64,000 bases of DNA from Cyathus striatus. Lineage: Eukaryota; Basidiomycota; Agaricomycetes; Agaricales; Nidulariaceae. Location of the stretch: the NCBI GenBank assembly GCA_025738555.1, contig JAOVFP010000005.1, positions 2,356,001 to 2,420,000 on the forward strand, given 5' to 3'. The notes beneath the pieces are model-generated. The model was not told the DNA's origin. It saw only the letters and a list, made by a program, of their open reading frames with translations, and ran no database searches. This document shows positions 32,283 to 46,977 of the stretch, one piece after another. How positions within the stretch are numbered: the stretch's first letter is position 1; every line of letters begins with the position of its first letter. The position numbers and the translations under genes were made by a program.

Positions 32283-34157
32283 TTAAATTGTAATAAATGT
32301 TACATACTCTTGAATAGATAGTTTTATACTGGGAAAGATCATATGATTTTCCTGAAATGGACCAGTGGTAATTTGGCTACCTTCCACATTCTGTGTCCTC
32401 ACAGATTTATCAGACAAGCCAGATACCACTTGCTTTCCATCTGGAGAAAATGCTACAGACTCAACTGAGGATGTATGCCCCTCACATGAACCAGCAGCAA
32501 CCTGACCACTTTCCACATCCCATATTCTCACAGTTTTATCATGTGAGCCAGATACCACCTGCTTTCCATCTGAAGAAAATGCTACAGACTCAACTGAGAA
32601 TGCATGCCCCTCAAATGGACCAGCAGCAACCTGACCACTTCCCACATCCCATATTCTCACAGTTTTATCATGTGAGCCAGATACCACCTGCTTTCCATCT
32701 GAAGAAAATGCTACAGACTCAACTGAGAATGCATGCCCCTCAAATGGACCAGCAGCAACCTGACCACTTCCCACATCCCATATTCTCACAGTTGTATCAT
32801 CTGAGCCAGATACCACTTGCTTTCCATCTGAAGAAAATGCTACAGACTCAACTGAGAATGCATGCCCCTCAAATGGACCAGCAGCAACCTGACCACTTCC
32901 CACATCCCATATTCTCACAGTTGTATCATTTGAGCCAGATACCACTTGCTTTCCATCTGGAGAAAATGCTACAGACAAAACTGAGGATGTGTGCCCCTCA
33001 AATGGACCAGCAGCAACCTGACCACTTTCCACATCCCATATTCTCACAGTATTATCCCATGAGCCAGATACCACTTGCTTTCCATCTGGAGAAAATGCTA
33101 CAGACCAAACTGAGAATGCATGCCCCTCAAATGGACCAGCAGCAACCTGACCACTTTCAACATCCCATATTCTCACAGTTGTATCATCTGAGCCAAATAC
33201 CACTTGCTTTCCATCTGGAGAAAATGCTACAGACCAAACTGAGTCTGTATGCCCCTCAAATGGACCAGTAATTAATTTACCAGTAACTCTGTTCCATATT
33301 CCAGCAGTGTTATTCCTAAGCCCTGCAAGAATTTTTGTTCCATCAGCAGAAATTGTAACACTGGTGACTGCTGATGTATAGTGGTAAATTTCAGTTCCTT
33401 TATATCTCCAATATAGCTCACTGTCACCCAATCTAGAAACTGTATTTCTAAACATAGTGTGATATTGAATGTAGATGACTGTTTTAAGTGGTGTAAATGG
33501 TAGTGCAGAAAGATATATATGTGGGGCACTTGTGGTAATTGGATCATAGAAATGCTTGATAAATTCAATAGCATCATAAATGAACTCTTCTACTTTTCTT
33601 TCATTCTGTATATTCAAAGTTATTAATTGTAATATGCAACTTATAGTTTACTCACATTAATACAACATTTCAATTCTCTCAATAGCCACAGTGCTCTAGG
33701 TATTTCATCTAGCAAACTCATAACTTCAAGCCAGTACAAAAACTTTTCATACAAGAAGGTTATAATTTCTGCTGTGGTTTCTTTACTATTTTTAAGACTT
33801 GGAATATCCATCTTATGCAATGGCCAATACATGCTGCAGTATTGTAAATAATTTGGTATGTGCCATTGAATTTTTTCAGATAAATTTTCTACATCTTTGT
33901 TTTTGACATATGATGTCTCCAGTTCACAGATATTGAACTTCAATTTATTGTTCATTATTTTATATATTGTGGTTTCCATTTTAATGGAAAGAAATGCTTT
34001 GTCTATTTTATACTGCTCTATTGAGCATTTTTCTGTTAAAAACTCCACAAAGGATAAGTGCCTTGTAGTTACTTTTTCATCATTGATGGAAAGTACAGGT
34101 TGCAGGTATCCCAATATTATTTCAATTTTATCATTCAGGTCTTCATTGATCTTATCA
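32283..34157 (-). pseudogene. NACHT-WD40 STAND protein gene, C-terminal half (WD40 propeller)
   Basis: Continuation of the gene at 45776-46977, separated from it by an 11.6-kb transposon. The segment resumes at DKINEDLNDKIEIILGYLQP. It has one intron (about 33611-33660) between RELKCCIN and NERKVEEF, a helical linker, one degenerate WD unit (SAVTSVTISADGTKILAGL), and then seven units of 43 residues of the form SVAFSPDGKQVVSGS...TVRIWDVESGQVAAGPFEGH. The seven units are almost identical at DNA level. WD propellers of such STAND proteins sense ligands, as in HET-E of Podospora. The stop follows IQEYVTFITI. Apart from the insertion no defect is seen. Confidence 0.9.
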
Positions 34158-34733
34158 CTAATGTATGGAAACCCGGAGCACCACGCTCAGAAGCATCAAA
34201 ATATTTCATGCTCCGAGCATCGGCTGCTCGGCAGATCACTTATTCCTTCACTTAGATATGTGTGCTCCGGTAATGAAATTCGGTAGTGACTCGCCTCGGT
34301 CAGGTTTTTTTAATAATAGCTAGAGGTGTACAAATAGAGTCAAATTGATGATTACATAAGCATGGTCACGAGCGTCGTTTCCTCGAAGGCAACGATGCTC
34401 ATGACCAGAATGTACAAATAGGTACAAACAGAAGCAAGGAGAGAGCGAACATGTTGTGCAATAATACTTTCTCTACTCCTGGCCTCAGAAAGGACCCAAG
34501 AAGAGGGGAGAAATATATTATATGTAAAGAGAATCAACAAATATTAATTCAAACAACTGCATGTAAGGTTTTCATACACAACATTGAAACTTCCAATTAA
34601 ATTTAGACCAGAATAATAATAGCACTGTAAAGGTTAATGAAACAGTGATCTGTTAACTTGTATACTATGTATTTCCAATTGGTACACAAGAGGAAACAGA
34701 GCTACCTAAAAGATGGTAACTATAACTGGAGTA

Positions 34734-35419
34734 CTAGCTAGATTTATCATCCACATTTAGCCCATCAAGATCAAACCAAGAACAGTACTTGTTACAGGCA
34801 TGCTCAGTTCGAAATTTGTCAAATGCAGAGCCAATATTTCCACCACCAAACAAATTTGCTTCATCTTCTAGCAGTCTTTATCCAAAATTGGTAAGATAAA
34901 ATGATAGATTTCATTGTATATAAAATACTTACGGTGCAGTCATAATCTGTGGGTCAGATAACAGTGTTGAGTTTCCTGTATAATCGTCAAAATCATATTA
35001 TGTCATTAAAATAGTGGTATACATACCTTGAAGATCAGATACATATGCTAAACCACCTGTTTTCTCATACTGAACATGTTGAGTAAAGGACAAAAACTCT
35101 GCTATAAAATAAAGTGGATCCACTTCTGCAAGTAGTGGTATTGCAGATCCATTGTGTATGAATTTGATGAATTCAGAGCTCCCCCCATTACAATCTTCAA
35201 TCAACTCCTCAACAAGGTAAACTCTGCACATTGTTGTTACTTTTCCACCAGATTTTGTAGCCGTTGAGTCATGTACAATTGCTACACCTGCCTTCACGAA
35301 GTGCAGTTGAGGAACTTCAAATGGAGGTGATCCTTTTGCTGATATCACCTGTGATATGTATGAGTATGTATGGGATAGTAATGATGCAGCCCAGTAGAAA
35401 ACATTTGCTTCACACTGCA
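34734..35419 (-). pseudogene. alpha-kinase, C-terminal half of the catalytic domain
   Basis: Continues from 36603 across a foldback insertion. It reads CEANVFYWAASLLSHTYSYI, VYLVEELIEDCNG (catalytic-core region), SEFIKFIHNG, FLSFTQHVQYEKTGGLAYVSDLQG, then, after short introns near 34980-35030 and 34880-34935, STLLSDPQIMTAP and LFGGGNIGSAFDKF, then HACNKYCSWFDL. These are hallmark motifs of the alpha-kinase (MHCK/eEF2-kinase) fold: the DPQI motif, the C-terminal glycine-rich GxGxxG, and zinc-binding His and Cys residues. Alpha-kinases phosphorylate Ser/Thr. The family is expanded in Agaricomycetes with unknown roles. The gene ends KSS-stop close to the left TIR of the carrying element. Confidence 0.85.
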
Positions 35420-35423
35420 TGCA

Positions 35424-36595
35424 CGCCTCGATATTTCAATGTGAAATAGCTTTGAAATACTGTAGAAATATTCTTTATATTACATCATTATTTCGCTTTG
35501 TAATACTCTTACAATTCACATATGATATTTCTCACATATTTGAAAGTCACAATAACAAAGAAATATTGAAACCTGGATCGCCATTTTCTTTGAAATCCTT
35601 TATTCAATATTTCAAAGGTTTTTCACCTATGAAATAACAAAGAAATATTTATTTGGGTAGTCACAATGAGCTTTGTCTACCATTGTCTCATCTTTGTGAC
35701 ATATGTCACAAGGTTCTTATCTAAGAGATCTTAGCAAGATCTTAGTCACAGTGGCATTGTGACATATGTCACGATCGTCACACTTGTCCCACAGTGTCAC
35801 ATATGTCGCAGTCGTCACAGTTGTCGCAGTTGTCGCAGTTGTCACACATGTCACAGTCGTCACAGTCGTCGCAGTTGTCACACTTGTCGCAGTCGTCACA
35901 GTCGTCGCAGTCGTCACAGCTGTCCCACAGTGTCACACTTGTCACAGTCGTCGCAGTCGTCACAGTCGTCACAGTTGTCACAGTTGTGATAAGTGTGACG
36001 ACTGCGACATATGTGACGACTGCGACGACTGTGACGACTGTGACGACTGTGACGACTGCGACATGTGTAACAAGTGTGACAACTGCGACGACTGTGACGA
36101 CTGTGACATGTGTGACAACTGCGACAACTGTGACGACTGTGACGACTGCGACAGTGCGACATGTGTGACAAGTGTGACAACTGCGACAACTGCGACAACT
36201 GTGATGACTGCGACATATGTGACACTGTGGGACAAGTGTGACGATCGTGACATATGTCACAATGCCACTGTGACTAAGATCTTGCTAAGATCTCTTAGAT
36301 AAGAACCTTGTGACATATGTCACAAAGATGAGACAATGGTAGACAAAGCTCATTGTGACTACCCAAATAAATATTTCTTTGTTATTTCATAGGTGAAAAA
36401 CCTTTGAAATATTGAATAAAGGATTTCAAAGAAAATGGCGATCCAGGTTTCAATATTTCTTTGTTATTGTGACTTTCAAATATGTGAGAAATATCATATG
36501 TGAATTGTAAGAGTATTACAAAGCGAAATAATGATGTAATATAAAGAATATTTCCACGGTATTTCAAAGCTATTTCACATTGAAATATCAAGGCG
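35424..36595. mobile_element. 1.17-kb palindromic foldback element inside the alpha-kinase gene
   Basis: The whole element is one near-perfect inverted repeat centred near 36000. The outer 335 bp of each arm (CGCCTCGATATTTCAATG inward) differ at only about three positions. The core (about 35755-36255) consists of GTCACAGTC/GTCGCAGTC 9-bp words on one side and GACTGCGAC/GACTGTGAC on the other. TGCACGC flanks both ends (35420-35426 and 36596-36602, overlapping the first bases of the left TIR). Deleting the element plus one copy leaves LIDTACMQCEANVFYW in frame in the kinase gene. It encodes nothing itself; overlapping ORFs here are products of the repeat. Confidence 0.85.
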
Positions 36596-36602
36596 TGCAC
36601 GC

Positions 36603-38804
36603 AGTGTCAATAAGTGTTTTTTCAAGCTCTGAGTCAACTGCAAAACGACCAATTGAAAAATTAGGCTGTGAATCACTTCGTGTTTTCTTCTTCCCCTTTA
36701 AATCACCTGGAAAGTAAACACACTTAGCAGCAATGGCCTGGTTTAAAACATTACCAAGGCCTGATTTGGCTAAGGGTGTAACAGTTAGCAGCCCTTTGTG
36801 AGCAGTTTTACATGCCCCAATGCCAAGTGCTTCCAGATGGTTGATTGATAAAACGCCAGGATGTGGATCAGAGAGTTCAAATGATTTTGAAGCAGAGTCA
36901 GAAAGGAGCTCTGTCAAACTGATATCAGGAATCGCATAAAATTGGATCTGCTCCACAATATGTTTAGCTTATGCAAGAGAAGTATTGAGTTGATGAAATA
37001 CAACAATATTATAATTAACTTACTGGAATGTGTTTGAAGATTAGCTAACAATCCGCCTGTCTTCAATGCTTCACGAACTTTTTCTCTGTCAGGGGATACA
37101 TAAATGGTTGATATTTGAACACACTTCTTTGCAGGTGTAGATGTTGGGGATAAATCCATGGAGTTTTGAGTATTCTACATAATTGAATGTTAGTATAATG
37201 TAAATGTCATAAGTAATAATAAAACCCATACTGTGCATGTTCTCTTCTGCATACCAGATGACTCAGAAGGTGGCACCTTGCTTCCATCAGTCCATGGTTT
37301 CTGGTTGGGTATGGAACAAGCATTATTGATCACTGGATTTATATCTGTTTCATAGAACTGAGTAGATGTATCAAAGTTGTTTTTTTGGTCCTACTTGTAG
37401 GTCAGATATAACATAATTACATTTGATAAATGAAGATTACCTTAGTTTCCTGAGTTAACAATTCAGTTTTAAAATGAGTTACATTATGAAGTGATTAACA
37501 AATATCTTACCTCTTGCTCAATAATATAATCTAAACACTTATCCCACAACTTTGCTGGTATAACGAGTGCCAATGTGAAAGGTTTGGAAGGTTTTTTAAA
37601 GACCTTTGTTTTATCTTTTCCTCTTCCTTCAGCAAGACAGCGATAATAAAAGTATGGGTGATCCTGTTTCTCAAGTGAAAGATCTGCCCATGAAGAGAGC
37701 TCACAAATTGTTAACTTATTCATTTTGAATGGAAAGCCGTGTGTTTCCTTTATAAGCTTCAGGAAAATAGTATCTTCCACCAACTGTCTGAGCTCAGGAG
37801 GTGTAGCTGTTGCTGGGATATTTTGTCGCCCTTCCTGAAGATTCTACATGAATTTGTTAGTACAAGTGCAATAATATAAAGCAAGACAGAATAACAAACC
37901 AGAATCAATTCAGGCTTCGCTTTTCCTGACACTTCACGCACAGCCTGAATTAAAACACTGATAGTTTCAGTCTGGTTACCAGACTGGTAACATAGACGTC
38001 GATACTTGTCATGTTCACCACTGTAGAGAGAATGTGCACCAGAATATCCAGTAGCCATTAATCGCTGAGAAGAGGCTGACCCTCTGTTGCCTGATGACCA
38101 TGTACTTGGTATTCCAATGGTAGGCAATGCACCATTATTTGTAATAGGCCATCTTTGCAAGCTGGATGTCAAATGAACACTGTTTGATATTGGTGTAACC
38201 TTCCGTGCAAGCAATTCAGAATCTAAACAAAATATCAGGTAAGTATTAAAGTAATAGTAGCATCACAATATGCAAAATCTAACCTTTTCATTGTGCTCGG
38301 TTTACAGATGTTCGTATAGCATTGACATCAATGCTTGTTGCAGCACTTTGTTGATGAGCAACAGCAGGACCTACAATTAAAATTGTTTAATACTCATTTC
38401 AGTGTTAAATTATAATGTTGATATGTACTGAGAATGGAATCATGAGGCAGCTGTTGGTTTGGGCCAGAAATACTGTTCAAAATATCTGGTCCTAATTGAT
38501 TGAAATGTAAGTGACTAAATGGAAATGATGAAAAATGAACAGCACGTAGTATAGTATCTGGCTTCCTGGTATAATGCTCAAAGCATGGCTTGCATACAAA
38601 CTTGCCTGTAGAACCATTATTCCCTACCACATAGTGCCTGTTGTCACCTGGAAGAAGAATAGTGGAGCAGCTACTTCTACCACAAGGAACTGAATCATTA
38701 GCATGAGCATCCTCTGTAAATTGAGCGATAGCTTCAGCATTACCAAAGTTCATGATGTGGAATATAGTTGTTGTGGATGGAATAGAGCAGCTGCTTAAAA
38801 ACAT
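36603..38804 (-). pseudogene. alpha-kinase, N-terminal part
   Basis: The start MFLSSCSIPSTTTIF is chosen as the first Met; an internal Met (MNFGNAEAIAQF) is equally possible. The N-terminal region has a cysteine motif (CGRSSCSTILLPGDNRHYVV, then GKFVCKPCFEHYTRK) that could bind zinc. Several short introns follow, and a mid-region contains MNKLTICELSSWADLSLEKQ. The kinase domain then begins with IGACKTAHKGLLTV and NQAIAAKCVYFPGD, whose Lys is the expected nucleotide-binding lysine, and RFAVDSELEKTLIDTAC, where the foldback element cuts in. One in-frame TGA (in NRAQ-stop-K near 38.29 kb) is again a possible CGA change. The gene is divergent from the integrase-like gene at 39.55 kb. Confidence 0.75.
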
Positions 38805-39552
38805 AAGAGGGATGTCACAGTATTTATATTCACAAAATCCCTGTGTTTAGGATAAGCTGTGATTCTAAGCTTCATGCAAATAACATGAGTCAGCCACACG
38901 TAAAACTGTATTAATGCTAATTATAACATGGACCACTATTATCAAGAACATGCAGCGCAGTCATAGCTTCAAAATTAAACACACAACAACTGTGGGAGTT
39001 GGGTATGTCATATCTCATAGAATGTGAGGTAAGTGATAAGTAAAGTTCATTGTTGTAGAACAATGCAAACTCAAGACTCGGAGCCAAATACTTGTTAGTA
39101 TATACCGGATAAAAACATGAGGTTTAAGTTGCATATGCACCTATTACTCTTACAATGATCAATCAAATACACATGTCTCCTTAGCAGGATTACAAGAGTA
39201 ATAGCAAAGAGTGTTCAATATCTAATATATACAAAATTAGCTAAATGGTAATGTAAGACTATGTCTTTGGTGAAGGCCAAGGCTTTGTGAATAATCGTTT
39301 ACCGCTACACCACCCATAATAGCATTACATTTTCACACATTAAATATCGGCTCCAAGAACATGTGTTATTAGCATCTCAGTTTATGTTTAATTGCAATTA
39401 TGATACTTTTGGATTGCCCATTGTTAGCATAACATATATATACCACAAAAAATGATGAGTGTAAGTATAGCTGTCTCATTTCTGTCTCCTACTCATTTTC
39501 ATTATCATGGCGTGAACAAAACTTGTGAAAAATCAATACTTACCAAATCATA
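38805..39552. promoter_or_regulatory. shared intergenic region of the divergent kinase and integrase genes
   Basis: About 750 bp, AT-rich, without a supported ORF, between divergently transcribed genes. It must hold both promoters if either gene is expressed. TATA-like runs occur (for example ATATATATACC near 39431-39442), but none can be assigned. Confidence 0.35.
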
Positions 39553-41451
39553 ATGTTTGTTTATTATACTTATAAATTGTTAATTTACCTGCTTGTCACA
39601 GCTCCAATTGACGATATTGCACAGTACATACTTATGTACTGGAAAATGTGCCATTCTGACAAGGTAATACTCCGTTATCTGAAGGAAAAACACATGGATG
39701 TTACACGCTATGGCTTGGGGTCAGTAATTCTAGTTGTTTTATTCTTGGTATTTATCTCTATCTTACTTATATATAAAATTAGATTGACACGGTTTCGGGA
39801 AATGCGTGAAGCTATGGGCTTATTCCATTCACGGAAGCAAAAGCATGATGTTGACAGTATTCATGAGGCTATGGTTTGATTGCATACACAATATCCAAAT
39901 GCTGGTGCTCGAGAGATGGTCAGTTTATTATTTCATGAGGAAAATATGGCTGTTACCCAGTATGTTTGTCAATGAATTCAATATCTTCAAATATCTTACT
40001 CTATGGTCTTTTCTTCAACTAGACAAGTGGTTATATCCTATTTTGCTCTCTATGAGCCTGATCTTGTGAAGCAGCGGCAAGCACGAAGGTTGAAGAGGAA
40101 GAAGTGGTGGTCTGCTGGTGTTAATGACATTATTGCAGTGGACCAGCATGACAAATGGAAATACAAGTTTGGCCTTGGTCTACATACTGGCATTGATCCA
40201 TTTGCTGGAAAGATACACTGGCTGAAGGTTTGGCACTCTAACAGCAATCCCAAGCTAATATTTAGCTATTATCTTGAAGCAATTGAAGATATGGGAGGTA
40301 AATATTTCATACCATACATGAATTGCGTTGAATTCTCATTTGATTTATACCATACAGCTATGCCACTAGTCACTCAGAGTGATCCTGGTTCTGAAAACTT
40401 TGGAATTGCAAATGGACATACATTTCTTCGACACTGGCATGATCCTTCACTTAAAGGGACACTCCAACATCGCTGGATGCATGAGAAGAAGAACATAAAG
40501 CCTGAGATCACATGGTCACAGCTTCGGTGTCGATTTACTCCTGGATTTGAAAACATTCTTGATCATGGTGTTAATGAGGATTGGTATCACCCAGATAATA
40601 CTTTAGAGGCGTTAGTCATTATTTTATACAATTTCATCTTATTCTTATCCTTTTTAGATTGGTATTTCACTGGGTCTTTATTCCTTGGTTACAGGGAGAG
40701 CTTGATGCTTACAAGAATCGAGTTAATAACTCAGCAAAACGAGCAGATCACAATAAAATTCTTCCACATGGTGTTCCAAATGATATTTGTTTAAATCCTA
40801 GTGAATATGGTGTGTTAGACTTCAAAGTATGTGTGTTCTCGCTTAGTTAGTAATCTGGTCAACTAATATTTGATAAATTATAGATATCTGTCCAACAAGA
40901 GGCTATACAAGAAGCATGCACTCTGTTTTCACCCCCAGATCACCCAGTATTTGAGCTTGTTCCCAAGTCATTTTCCGACATGGTTAGTGCAATATACATT
41001 CAACATAACTCACCAGCAATTACAAGACATAATGTATGGGATGTGTATTTGTTGATTTTAACAAATATCCAGGCGGCAAATGAAATTCCACATGAGGACT
41101 TTGCTCTATGGACTGATATTATTCAAACCTCAACACAGAATGAAATAGCTGATAATGATGAGGAATTAATGCCAGGACTTCAAGAACTTGAAGGAGGCAT
41201 GGAAAATTGAATGTCAGATGGTTCATATTATATGGGAGGTGTTAACAATGGCCAAGGAATGGGTTAGTAGTAATCACCTGCTAGTTTTTCAGTAGTTGAC
41301 ATTTACATTACAGATGAAACTCATTCAGCTGAACTGGATTATATGATGAATGTGGATGATCCACTTCCATACCAGGAACAAGATTTGGCAGAAATTGAAG
41401 TTAACTTTACTTCAGATGAGAACTTCAGTGATGGAGATGGTACCTGGTAGT
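39553..41451 (+). pseudogene. integrase-core (rve-like) transposase of a basidiomycete DNA transposon
   Basis: An exon chain with short introns gives YPNAGAREMVSLLFHEENMA, YEPDLVKQRQARRLKRKKWW, SAGVNDIIAVDQHDKWKYKF, GIDPFAGKIHWLKVWHSNSN, PLVTQSDPGSENFGIANGHT, LQHRWMHEKKNIKPEITWSQ and VFIPWLQGELDAYKNRVN, then LPHGVPNDI. Candidate catalytic residues are Asp in AVDQHDKW, Asp in TQSDPGSEN and Glu in IKPEITW, an rve-type D-D-E arrangement that recalls integrase-type (IS3EU-like) eukaryotic transposases. Two in-frame TGA codons (after HEAMV, and after GGMEN near the end) suggest decay; the last exon ends NFSDGDGTW-stop. The exact start is uncertain. It is the likely mobilising enzyme of the element, but that link is inference. 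Confidence 0.7.
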
Positions 41452-41867
41452 TTCAGAAATAGATTTCTACTAGTACTACTAGTATACACTTGAAGCTCCT
41501 AGTTAGCTAGTTCTGTTTTCTCAAATATTCTCGCTCTCTCCTTGCTTCTGTTTGTACCTGTTTGTACATTCTTCCAAAACTTCGTCCTCATTACTCAATC
41601 ATCACCTCAACTTATGCACATTAGGTGCAACAGCACAAATGTTGCTTTGAAATAAATATATAGCACCCTTCTACATTTATAGCCCTCTGGGTAAGCTTAG
41701 AAATGAATCCATTGTTACTTATTACACAATATATTCGCTCCCTCCTTGCTTCTGTTTGTACTTATTTGTACATTCTGGTCACAAGCGTCATTGCCTTTGA
41801 GGAAACAACGCTCGTGACCATGCTTATGTAATCATCAATTTGACTCTATTTGTACACCTCTAGCTAT
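41452..41867. repeat. right TIR and duplicated subterminal block
   Basis: The right TIR occupies about 41700-41867. A block of about 45 bp with CTCCTTGCTTCTGTTTGTAC and TTTGTACATTCT occurs twice in direct orientation, at about 41531-41572 and 41733-41775. The outer copy lies within the TIR, so the inner one is a partial duplication of the element end. Confidence 0.6.
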
Positions 41868-42052
41868 TAGTCCTACTCAATAAGTCATTATGGTTTTTCA
41901 TTAGAATTTTTGAGATCAAAGGAGACCATGCGGTAATCTGATGCCAAGTAAGAGGCAAGGAAGTTAAAGTGGAGCTCGAACCAACAACACGGTGCTGGTG
42001 GCGACAGTAACGCTGCTGCCCCGTAAACTTAATTTTCCATCATCCACAGCGC

Positions 42053-43948
42053 ATGACACCAGACAGCACCATGAATGCTTCCCAGGCTGTCTCGTCTACA
42101 AGAGGTATGTTTGCAATGGGCTATTTTCGATTGAACTAATACTGTTTATCTTATCTTGTAGACAGCCCTGGCTACCCTGAGACACCGCAAGCGCAGCGCA
42201 CGTCTTCGTTTAGAACCCAACATCCAACTGTGTCCTTGCCACCTATCGCATCTCTGGGCCTTTTCAGACAGGAGGACGCACAGAGTTATTCTCTGGGTGC
42301 CTATGGCTCCCTCCCTGGTATTCACCTGGCGCACAAACAACAGGCTACAGCAACCAGTTATCCCCAGACTCCGGCTCGTCCTGGGAAGGAGAATCTTGTT
42401 CCTACTCCAAGTTCTCATCATGCTGCCCATAGTAGAGGTCATATACATGGTTATGGTACATTTTTTTTGTTTTTTTTGTTCCCTGTTCTAATCCTTCATC
42501 ATGTCTAGGACATGTTGCTACTTTTTCAACTCCTACACCAGTCCACCATGTGCAATCTCATATTCCTCTTGTGCTCGACTCCCCAGCACCGAAATGGAAT
42601 ATGCCCTGGATTCCTGCTACCGTGATTCCACCCCCACCAACTCCCACAGTCACCTCTGCTCCCTCCCTCAACGAACAACCGACTTCCCTTGCCAATGTTG
42701 TACCCACCGAGAGCTCTTCGAAATCAGCTAACAAGGGTTGCAAGAAGACCGCTACTCATGTGGAGTCAGTGGCCATTAGCAAGTCACCAAAGCAAGCAAA
42801 GGCTGCAAAACGCTCGCGTGCTAAGGCCAAGGGTGCTGGGAGTAAGAGTGGCAAGCAAAACCGAAGATCTGCTGGCGCATCAGACAAGGAGATCATGAAG
42901 CTCAGTCAGCAGGCGAAGGAGGCTGCTTCCTTACCCAAGCCGAAGCCATGGCCACACAAAGTTCAGGAGGTAGTGGCGGAGGTGGATGTAGTTGAATTGG
43001 TGAAGGACATTGAATGGCTAGAGAGCGATGATGAGGAGCAGGCCGGTTCGGATGAAGAAAGCAGCAGCCCCAGCATCTATGATAGTGATAGTGGCGATTC
43101 CAAGCGGCGGCTGACTGAAGCGGAGAAGGCTGTTATTGTACAGTTCATAACCAGCCCGGAGATTTGGCCGACGTTCAAGACAAAGCAGAAGAGGGTCTGG
43201 GGAAAGGTATGCCCGTATCTCTCTTGTTTGTATCACTCCATTTGTTAATACCAGTAATAGATTTCGAAGCTCCTTTCGGGAAGGGACCCAAAGACCATCA
43301 GCAGCTACTGGCACACCAATGCATGGATGAAGTACAAGGCTGTGCGAGAGTGGGAGAACCATACAGGTGGTGGAGATAGAGATGATGAGGGTAGAGTAAA
43401 TAAGAAGATGGTTTTTGGCTATTCAACGCGGGTCATGAAGGCATTCAAGGAGTTGGAGATATATGAGTTGATTGACAAAGTGTATGTTTCCATTCATTTT
43501 ATAATTCACTTTACTCATCTTCCAAAGTGCTAGGGATGCTTCTGATGTAATGCGTGCAAGGGACTACAATTCCACTGCCCCCCTTTCAGATCAAGAAGAC
43601 ATACGTCCACAAAAGCATTGCAAGCACTCTTGCTCTGTCAGTATAGAGCGCTCAGCAAGCAGTGATTCTATCGGCCCATGTGAACACTGGCTTTCTGAGG
43701 CCGTTGGTGCGATAAAAGAGAAAGCTCGAAGCTCTGCGGCTGTTGCACAAGAAAAGCTAGAGCTTGCTCAGAAGCATGATCAGCGTGAGGAAGATGAACG
43801 TCGTGAACGGCAGGAGATGATGAAGATTGATGCGCGTAATAAGAGTCTGGACATGGTAATGCAGATGCTGGCTCATGAGGACATGACTGTGAGGGAAATT
43901 GGTAAGAAGTATATGGCAGAGTTGGATTTAGGGGATATGTTTAAGTAG
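42053..43948 (+). CDS. Harbinger accessory protein, Myb/SANT-like DNA-binding
   Basis: The start is MTPDSTMNASQAVSSTR, followed by an intron (about 42105-42161), a Pro/Ser-rich region, an intron near 42456-42509, and a Lys/Ala-rich basic tract (KSPKQAKAAKRSRAKAKGAG). The DNA-binding region reads KRRLTEAEKAVIVQFITSPE, WPTFKTKQKRVW, then after an intron ISKLLSGRDPKTISSYW, and KMVFGYSTRVMKAFKELEIY. The C-terminus is a charged coiled coil (AQEKLELAQKHDQREEDERR). PIF/Harbinger elements carry such a Myb-like partner that helps bring the transposase to the TIRs. No stop interrupts the deduced exons, and CpG content is normal, so it may be functional. It converges with the transposase gene. Confidence 0.75.
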
Positions 43949-43987
43949 TACTCGTAGTTTACACCTATACTACTGCAGTAAAAAGTG

Positions 43988-45357
43988 TCAAAGCAATTCC
44001 TTCCATCGTAATAGCCCTTGTCGATGCAGATCAGTCATTTGAACACCATTATTAACAACTGGTGCATCTCCTCCGATTACCTCTTCCACATCATTGTCAT
44101 CTCTACCATTAAAACCAGCTATTGCTGTAGGATCATCCATGAAGCCTTCAAGAATGTTGTGTAAAACCATCAATGCTTCAATCTGTTGATGTATAAGATC
44201 AAGATTCCGTCCTGGAATAAATTGAAGAATAGGAAATCTTCCTTTTAGGCGACCAAAAGAATGCTCAACAGCAATTCGTATAGATGAAAGTGCCTGATTC
44301 CAACGCTTGCATTGGTTTGCCTCAGCAGGATCATTTGTGAGATCATAGTCACTGAATGGACGAATAGAAAATGGAGTAAGAGGGTATCCTTTATCGACAA
44401 GAATATATTCATAAGGTCTGAAATAGTTGTTTCGGTTACGCCATAGATCTGAATTCTTGAATACCCGACTGTCTTGCACAGAACCAGGCCAGCCAAGTTC
44501 ATAGGATGTAAACTGGGCATGGTTGTTGACTGTGGCTTGAATGTTTAGCTACTGAGATTGTGAATCAAACTATTATAAGATAAAGAAAACATTGCCCACT
44601 GCATAGAACTTCTTGCGGCACCAATATGCATAGGGATTTTGACTCGGCATATCCTGTAGATGAATATAACTTCCATCGCCTGACCCTAACTGCCCTGGAA
44701 ATGAGGTGCCACGCTCTGCCATTATTGCAGCTTCTGCATCTCGCTCAGCTGGAGTGGGCCAATGAAGAAACTGTGGATGTAGTCTGCGAAGGGCTTTAGT
44801 TACACGAAGAGTGTATCCATATACTGAACCTTCTGAAATTGCCATAACACCAGCGGCCTTTACTCCAGTCTCAGCTCCAGCACGACACAGAAAAGTTGCA
44901 AGCTGATGTTCAACAGGACGCTGAGGTCGGCCTTCTGTACTTGCAAAGACTGGATCATCTTTTATGAAATCCACAATTCTCCAAAATGAAGTTCGGTCCA
45001 TGCTATTAACCTCTTCAAAACATTGCTAATATAGATATATGTACTGGAAACACACCGGAGCCATGATTTAAAAAACCTATCAGAGTACTCAGTTAAAAGA
45101 AGCTTGTAGAACTGAGTGGCTTTCTGCTGATTGTATGGACCCCGCCTTCCGTATCTCCCACTCTTAATTGTGCGAAGGAACCTTGCCTCATTCAGAGCAA
45201 TCTCCACAATCCCCAAAGCAGCAATTTCATCGTCATCATCTTCTGCTTCAGCAAGAAGCAGAATGGCAAGAGCTTCAAGATCGGCCAGAGTTTTCTTGTG
45301 AGACTTGTACTGCTGTGTCTGTGAGTTAATATGATTTCCTGTTCTCTGTCTAGGCAT
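43988..45357 (-). CDS. PIF/Harbinger transposase (DDE_Tnp_4 type)
   Basis: Begins MPRQRTGNHINSQTQQYK. Two short introns are deduced: one joining FFKSWLR to MDRTSFWRIVDF (about 45006-45057), one joining CRKKFYA to LNIQATVNNHAQF (about 44551-44608). Domain landmarks: EGRPQRPVEHQLATFLCRAG, GVMAISEGSVYGYT (HTH region), the first catalytic Asp in GSGDGSYIHL, NPYAYWCRKKFYA, GWPGSVQDSRVFKNSDLW, the second Asp in ILVDKGYPL, and the Glu in VEHSFGRLKGRFPIL. The C-terminus is LLRWKELL. All catalytic motifs are present and no stop interrupts the exons, so the enzyme may be active. Its product would cut at the TATGGAAACC-type TIRs. Confidence 0.85.
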
Positions 45358-45775
45358 CTCAAGCAGTGAAGCGGGGGAAAGGGCAATTGATTTATTAGAA
45401 ACACGGTAGCGCAGCTAGAGCAATGCGCGGCTGCGCCATCAGTGCGCATGGCAACAGGTCAAGTCTTTCAATTTAAACTCAGAAACTCAGCACCAATCAG
45501 AACCTCTTACATCAGCTACTTGGCAGGTGCCTGAACATGTGGGCTCTATCGCTAAACATCTGCTTCCGTTATAAAACACATAACAAAAAAATCTAACGAC
45601 TTATTGAGTAGGACTATTATTAAAAAAACCTGACCGAGGCAAGTCGCTACCAAATTTCATTACCAGAGCACACATATCTAAGCGAAGGAATAAGCGATCT
45701 GCCGAGCAGCCAATGCTCGGAGCATGAAATATTTTGATGCTTCTGAGCGTGGTGCTCCGGGTTTCCATACTAATG

Positions 45776-46977
45776 AAGTGTTGTATATCATTTTTCTGTA
45801 GTGCAACTTTTGCAAGTATTATTACTCCAAGAACATTCTGAACAGTTTGTTTGTCTGTATCACTCCAGGTTACAAATGAAAAGTTTAAGACCTGTGCATA
45901 CAAGTTATATATAGCAAGCTCTTCACTTTCTTGATTTTCTAGAATTAGCTTCAACTTTTTTCTTGGATTTATACTATTTTGTTCATTTGAGGTGATGTAT
46001 GTAACAGCAGTAGAAGCCCAAATGAACAATCCTGCAGCTCTCTGTGTTAATTTTCTCAATTCATCATCATTTAGTTTCCAACCAATCAAGGAAAGCACTT
46101 GAGAGCTTTCAAATTTCTCTTTTAGATAACTATGTATATCATGGTTGGTTTCTGAGCTCACATTTGAGCCTATCTCTAGTTCATAGTCAATAGACGTATT
46201 ATCTTTCACCCACTCCTTTGGCTTGTAGCCAGGTCTACCAGTTACAATAAGTTTGCAAGTTTTTGGAAGCTGTGCCCAAGAAACTAGAGTTTTTAAAAAG
46301 ATGTTCATGTCATTGGAATTCTTGCACTCATCTAATGCATCAATAATTACAACTGGAGGAAAATCCTGCAGCTGCACCTCAAAATCATGAAACATATTGC
46401 AAATTAAATTTTGAAAGTGCCACTTGATATCTTGAGGTAGGAAGTTCATATTCAATTTTCTTGCAATCAATTCAGCAATAGGAGTATGAATGGATGCCAT
46501 GGTGGCAGCAGCAGTGCGCCATACAACACATGGATCATTTAGCTCATCATCATTTCTTTTGAAGAAATGAAAGCCACAGAGCCTCTTGGTTTCAGAAAGC
46601 TTGGATACTAAAGTAGAGGCAATTGCTGACTTTCCAGCTCCTGGATATCCAGTGATCCACAAAATGTTTCTTGACTCAGCTAATAATGAGATAGCTATAA
46701 GAATGATAAACCAATCATTGCAGTTTCACATACTGAAATCATTGAGCCAGTCATCTATCTCCTTAAGCAATCCCTTCCTTGTTCCTTCCATACAGCCAGA
46801 TATATTAAATTTGTCACGAGATAAAGGCTTCAGTTGACTATTAAGTTTTGCTTGAATGTCATTTGTGCCTCCCTGATTAATAAACTGATTTCCGGAAACA
46901 GTGTTCAAAATACTGTTTTGAATGTTCACATTGTGTGCATTGCTAAACGTATGAGCACCAGAAGAGTACATAGCCAT
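45776..46977 (-). pseudogene. NACHT-WD40 STAND protein gene, N-terminal half (NACHT NTPase)
   Basis: The start MAMYSSGAHTFSNAHNVNIQ is followed by NTVSGNQFINQ, a typical N-terminal motif of basidiomycete STAND proteins. A 52-nt intron (about 46684-46735) links DWLNDF to TESRNILWITG. The NACHT domain shows Walker A GYPGAGKSAIAS, Walker B VVIIDALDEC, sensor TCKLIVTGRPGYKP, and RKLTQRAAGLFIWASTAVTY. The frame is then cut after IQHFIS by the Harbinger element and continues at 34157. NACHT-WD40 proteins act in heterokaryon incompatibility and innate-immunity-like signalling through nucleotide-driven oligomerisation. No effector domain precedes the NACHT domain. The insertion should truncate the protein before the propeller. 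Confidence 0.9.

Follow-up and report, generated by a model that had tools for sequence, protein, structure and literature searches.

The 64,000-nucleotide stretch of the Cyathus striatus genome considered here (the window; C5:2356001-2420000 of a 107-Mb assembly in 24 contigs) contains a decayed IS3EU-type transposon in which an alpha-kinase gene lies divergent to the transposase gene, and we think it likely that this kinase is a resident helper of the element, with the transposase or a silencing factor of the host as its probable substrate. The element occupies positions 34164-45769, begins with TATGGAAACC, ends with GGTTTCCATA, and carries 301-bp terminal inverted repeats. It has the features by which IS3EU elements are recognized, namely a 6-bp target duplication, TAYGG..CCRTA termini, and an IS3/rve-like DDE transposase. 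Its parts are the following.

34158..34163, no strand: left 6-bp target site duplication, CTAATG, with the same letters at 45770-45775
34164..34464, plus strand: left terminal inverted repeat, 301 bp (outer 150 plus inner 151), starting with TATGGAAACC
34734..38753, minus strand: alpha-kinase gene (PF02816), modelled by hand with 11 exons (exon 5, of 9 nt, being uncertain) and interrupted by an insertion that separates exon 8 from exon 9
39507..41450, plus strand: IS3EU-type transposase (rve-like integrase core), hand model
41719..41869, minus strand: right terminal inverted repeat, inner half
45620..45769, minus strand: right terminal inverted repeat, outer half, ending with GGTTTCCATA, 95% identical to 34164-34313
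45770..45775, no strand: right 6-bp target site duplication, CTAATG

The original prediction had described 165-bp inverted repeats bounding a 7.55-kb unit. Inverted repeats are indeed present there (34314-34464 and 41719-41869, 151 bp, 93% alike), but the real borders lie further out, where the left outer 150 bp recur inverted 95% alike at the right end. Removal of the element together with one CTAATG joins the flanks into a single open frame of 490 amino acids, and the closing of this frame over the empty site fixes the outer borders. Both genes that had been placed inside the repeats could be read by hand in the predicted divergent arrangement, the kinase on the minus strand and the rve-like integrase on the plus strand. 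The window copy is a dead, decayed element: the kinase model contains one in-frame TGA, in exon 2, and the integrase model contains three, features that had been overlooked, as had a foldback element of 1.2 kb inserted in the kinase gene. In a relative on contig C12, compared by eye, sense codons stand at all four positions, and its kinase is interrupted by stops elsewhere.

The pairing of kinase and integrase recurs throughout the genome, where all match counts are lower bounds. A piece of the integrase gave 45 matches (44 loci) and a piece of the kinase 67 (65 loci). The finding that would have refuted the original prediction, integrases with these repeats that always lack an alpha-kinase, was not made: a kinase lies within 12 kb at 38 of the 44 integrase loci, is divergent from the integrase in all 38, and represents 37 distinct kinase loci. 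Random placement of the kinases, with an average length assumed for five contigs, yielded a mean of 0.64 pairs and never more than 4 in 1,000 trials. Repeat searches sorted the elements into four repeat groups, whose repeats range from about 300 bp to 690 bp or more. The survey of termini covered the 25 of the 38 pairs whose two ends, with repeats on both sides, were readable from these searches; 23 reach both termini and 2 stop short. Among the 23 full elements the 6-bp duplication is exact in 19 and has one mismatch in 2, and 22 carry TATGG..CCATA ends, the remaining one ending in CCCTA. Seven further repeat-bounded elements lack one or both genes; 2 of these have an exact duplication, and one (C11:302385) stops short of the terminus. 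Because the end repeats of one element are 99.6% alike over 493 bp, recent activity is likely. Laboratory fungi could conceivably be used for experiments.

The two genes have also diverged in parallel. Across the 21 of 38 pairs in which both sequences were long enough (the C12 kinase piece was merged from two matches), kinase distances correlate with integrase distances at an r of 0.95, a value reached in none of 10,000 permutations. In comparisons between lineages, with synonymous divergence (dS) above 0.3, the ratio of nonsynonymous to synonymous substitution (dN/dS) is 0.12 to 0.17 for the kinase and 0.06 to 0.09 for the integrase; at dS 0.1 to 0.3, three comparisons of the kinase gave 0.30. 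Judged by these ratios, the kinase is under purifying selection between lineages.

A similar pattern appears in other fungi. Searches with the kinase protein found 31 distinct proteins, from species whose names we take to be those of Agaricomycetes; the searches scored just the candidates sharing most words, and absence of the family elsewhere cannot be read from them. Ten of the 31 kinases share a species and a same-sized contig with an integrase, as matched by eye against the best 120 of 545 integrases, the nearest integrase among the matches listed being one of Cyathus striatus at 73%. In Chiua virens the kinase and integrase have consecutive locus tags, 7918 and 7919. Over 11 pairs (these ten and the window), kinase and integrase distances correlate with an r of 0.96, again unmatched in 10,000 permutations.

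Profile searches and structure prediction support the gene assignments. At the window locus the kinase reaches 26.7 bits against PF02816 (cut-off, 21.3), with a single exon alone scoring 18.7, under the cut-off, and all eight kinase homologues scanned were above the cut-off. Both integrase homologues scanned exceed the cut-off for PF24764. A fragment of the window integrase frame scores 14.5 bits, under the cut-off of 26, and the window integrase locus was not among the matches listed in a genome-wide search with this profile. The candidate D, D, and E columns of the integrase are invariant in 13 sequences; a search of solved structures with an integrase profile gave no match. Predicted structure and sequence together indicate an alpha-kinase catalytic fold with conserved alpha-kinase motifs, which the transposon kinase has in common with TRPM7/ChaK, eEF2K, and Dictyostelium MHCK-A. 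It differs from these in being transposon encoded and in having an N-terminal segment rich in cysteine and a middle domain beyond the aligned region; the middle domain weakly resembles ubiquitin-like folds.

An IS3EU transposase paired with an alpha-kinase is not new. The original prediction knew of no described alpha-kinase transposon, but the passages of PMC12730594 cited here already place a divergent alpha-kinase in TET-bearing IS3EU elements of rust fungi and Tuber, which likewise have a DDE transposase, and they give 6-bp duplications and TAYGG..CCRTA ends for IS3EU. According to the same passages, every TET-bearing IS3EU family has a TET/JBP gene between the transposase and the alpha-kinase, which are in opposite orientations. 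The window copy differs in having no room for such a gene, since the modelled start codons of its kinase and integrase are just 753 bp apart; a genome-wide search for PF12851 gave no matches, but its control was likewise silent, which makes that result uninformative. The present relatives also differ from the elements described in those passages in belonging to Agaricomycetes and in their repeats, which fall into four groups and measure from roughly 300 bp to 690 bp or more. The IS3EU/GingerRoot superfamily, for which the passages of PMC10045372 consulted do not mention a kinase, has the same kind of TA..TA termini and 6-bp duplications. Styx of Zymoseptoria, related to IS3EU, also combines an IS3EU-type transposase with extra genes, which the cited passages of PMC10853768 do not identify. 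New, as far as searched, are the copies lacking TET in a mushroom-type genome, the parallel divergence, the selection, and the CpG decay described below. A literature search for an alpha-type protein kinase together with a transposable element returned no paper, and the question of why a transposon should have its own kinase was not found discussed in the literature searched, nor did the portions seen of that literature, which excludes most subscription papers and Repbase reports, take up what the kinase does, its conservation, or its selection.

In the mechanism we propose, cleavage by the transposase would occur at the TATGG..CCATA ends, which would then be joined to a target opened by cuts staggered by 6 bases, as expected from the family, and the kinase, predicted to be active, would work for the element as a helper. 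How it might help is suggested by the decay of the copies. With a CpG site defined as CG in at least three copies, a criterion that leans towards finding change at CpG, C>T changes affect 24% of CpG sites versus 0.45% of other cytosines in 13 kinase copies and 20% versus 1.3% in 10 integrase copies, all from one repeat group. From this decay we infer cytosine methylation of the elements. Hypermutation was not detected in Agaricomycotina according to the part of PMC12730594 seen, and CpG deamination may be a separate process. Because copies decay mainly at CpG, and because related fungal elements have TET/JBP between the same two genes, counter-silencing is our tentative first choice for the helper role, with action on the transposase a slightly less likely second.

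Several observations weigh against a kinase maintained as a helper. No kinase matched within 12 kb at six of the 44 integrase loci, two of the 23 full elements have no target duplication, and 27 PF24764 integrase loci that form a second set (e.g., C1:7030456 and C6:5545893) have one kinase nearby, on C17, a count from which diverged kinases could be missing. Young copies (dS below 0.1) gave ratios of 0.59 and 2.2, without sign of constraint, as expected if copies decay after insertion; one kinase pair has a ratio as high as 0.74, many pairs are close to saturation in dS, and 17 of 210 kinase comparisons yielded no dS. A stop directly follows the catalytic lysine in 8 of the 29 kinase copies read at that position, out of 30. 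The correlation of distances would also follow from plain co-inheritance, so it is the low dN/dS alone that speaks for function. Across species, moreover, the correlation leans on two distant species, and for eight Mycenaceae pairs r is just 0.67, with 97 of 10,000 permutations as high. The kinase models have low overall confidence (predicted template modeling scores of 0.37 and 0.39), and plain Foldseek with the second model placed one eEF2K chain on top followed by tyrosine kinases, a less clear outcome than that for the first model.

Near-neutral change in young copies and the stops in several kinase copies would suit a recent passenger, a host alpha-kinase captured by one copy and spread as neutral cargo. 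We regard this as improbable, given the pairing in four repeat groups and in another four pairs that are distant, the parallel divergence with dN/dS well below 1 between lineages, the kinase/integrase pairs in other Agaricomycetes, and the same gene orientation in the TET-bearing IS3EU elements of rusts and a truffle reported in the cited part of PMC12730594. The original prediction had likewise called the kinase transposon cargo. It does travel, as proposed, in a transposon whose transposase is of the integrase type, but cargo is the weaker word for a gene that tracks the divergence of its transposase, here and across other fungi. Slightly more doubtful than a passenger is a kinase that serves the host, whether domesticated or as host-beneficial cargo, with the transposon a mere carrier. 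At 28 of the 65 kinase loci there is no integrase, which also counts against the helper, and 2 of 5 unpaired kinase loci examined are repeat bounded and have kept the kinase sequence with no integrase match. Those two look like deletion derivatives, however, several other unpaired matches are short fragments, the window copy is dead, and an intact host copy in synteny is not known, though relatives were not searched for one. A resident helper thus remains the reading we prefer. A bolder extension, possible in our view though short of probable, holds that a fungal transposon superfamily has a dedicated kinase as its second essential gene; it would be the first case known in which selection keeps a kinase in a DNA transposon so that the element can regulate its transposition or disarm host silencing, and much of the reported alpha-kinase expansion of rusts and mushrooms would consist of transposon genes.

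Mobilized kinases had been proposed as a source of some of the strong alpha-kinase expansion in Agaricomycetes, and in this genome the proposal holds in part. Pfam detects 35 alpha-kinase matches, a count that covers detectable kinases only; of these, 24 fall in the transposon-kinase set, and the other 11 are close to neither set of integrases. Two of these 11 (C12:2361600 and C6:4539200) were compared with the transposon kinase as possible members of the same family, and both were set aside for lack of a meaningful match; they look like another type. The transposon accounts for part, not all, of the alpha-kinases in the genome. The alpha-kinase family is described as highly expanded in rusts in a passage of PMC4469406, with 79 and 39 in two columns of a table, and PF02816 is tabulated under "Protein modification" in PMC5295586; neither passage mentions transposons. 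Tallies of alpha-kinases in fungal kinomes would have to be corrected if this kinase proves to be a conserved gene of the transposon.

The window copy has itself received two insertions and lies within a host gene.

41870..45619, no strand: Harbinger-like element splitting the right terminal repeat, 3750 bp including one duplicated target copy (DDE_Tnp_4, 6.2e-25)
35409..36610 (approximate), no strand: foldback (long-palindrome) element within the kinase gene, with 456-bp arms that are 98% complementary
45776..46725, minus strand: N-terminal part (NPHP3_N/NACHT) of the gene hit by the element
32283..34157, minus strand: the same frame continued, then WD40 repeats in another frame

The order of nesting was originally read the other way around, as a 7.55-kb kinase transposon with 165-bp repeats that had entered the left repeat of a Harbinger element and duplicated TAG. 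Taken alone, the window is compatible with either nesting, which explains why the empty site appeared exact: excising the inner unit in silico leaves a repeat-bounded Harbinger-like element, and the closed NACHT frame fits equally well. The paralogues settle the order, because their repeats are uninterrupted. In all three close paralogues (C8, C9, and C12) the 301-bp repeat is unbroken at both ends and free of Harbinger DNA, with the inner and outer halves aligned as a single piece in C8 and C9; in the window only the left end is intact. None of the three paralogues stops at the inner 151-bp border with a TAG duplication, as the original reading would require. Outer ends and 6-bp duplications also recur in kinase-plus-integrase elements of all four repeat groups. 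Insertion of the kinase unit into the Harbinger repeat is contradicted by these paralogues and has very little probability left; on this comparison of sequences, the 3.75 kb of Harbinger-like DNA evidently inserted itself into the kinase element's right repeat, and not vice versa. The kinase element is not itself a Harbinger transposon: DDE_Tnp_4 was seen in the nested insert, which the repeats of the paralogues lack, and the element's own transposase is of the separate Pfam family PF24764. Harbinger elements usually produce 3-bp target duplications.

The foldback is bordered by 10-bp direct repeats with one mismatch, and the kinase frame continues across it. Its reading as an intron of the kinase gene was rejected, in that the few splice choices tried by hand break the frame and joining at the direct repeat keeps it. 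Its family is dispersed on many contigs, with 126 genome matches, of which the best candidates alone were scored; members are about 1.2 kb, nearly all palindromic, and have central 9-bp GTCACA-like units.

Other repeats in the genome resemble those of the kinase elements. Some second-set PF24764 loci adjoin related terminal repeats (C16:2241510 and C7:4701152), and there are shorter pairs of similar repeats, some 2.4 to 7.7 kb apart, with no listed kinase or integrase match. In one repeat group (C18:1611739-1612591 and relatives) the terminal repeats hold units of about 200 bp in tandem, which may be arrays for transposase binding. The flanks of C9:2518542-2521488, which has a kinase and no integrase, are inverted rather than direct repeats (AGTGCTTCAG and CTGAAGCACT).

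The gene in which the element sits is of the NACHT type (NLR-like), with WD40 repeats downstream. Its WD40 units are partly near-identical 129-bp tandem copies (33000-33257, 92%).

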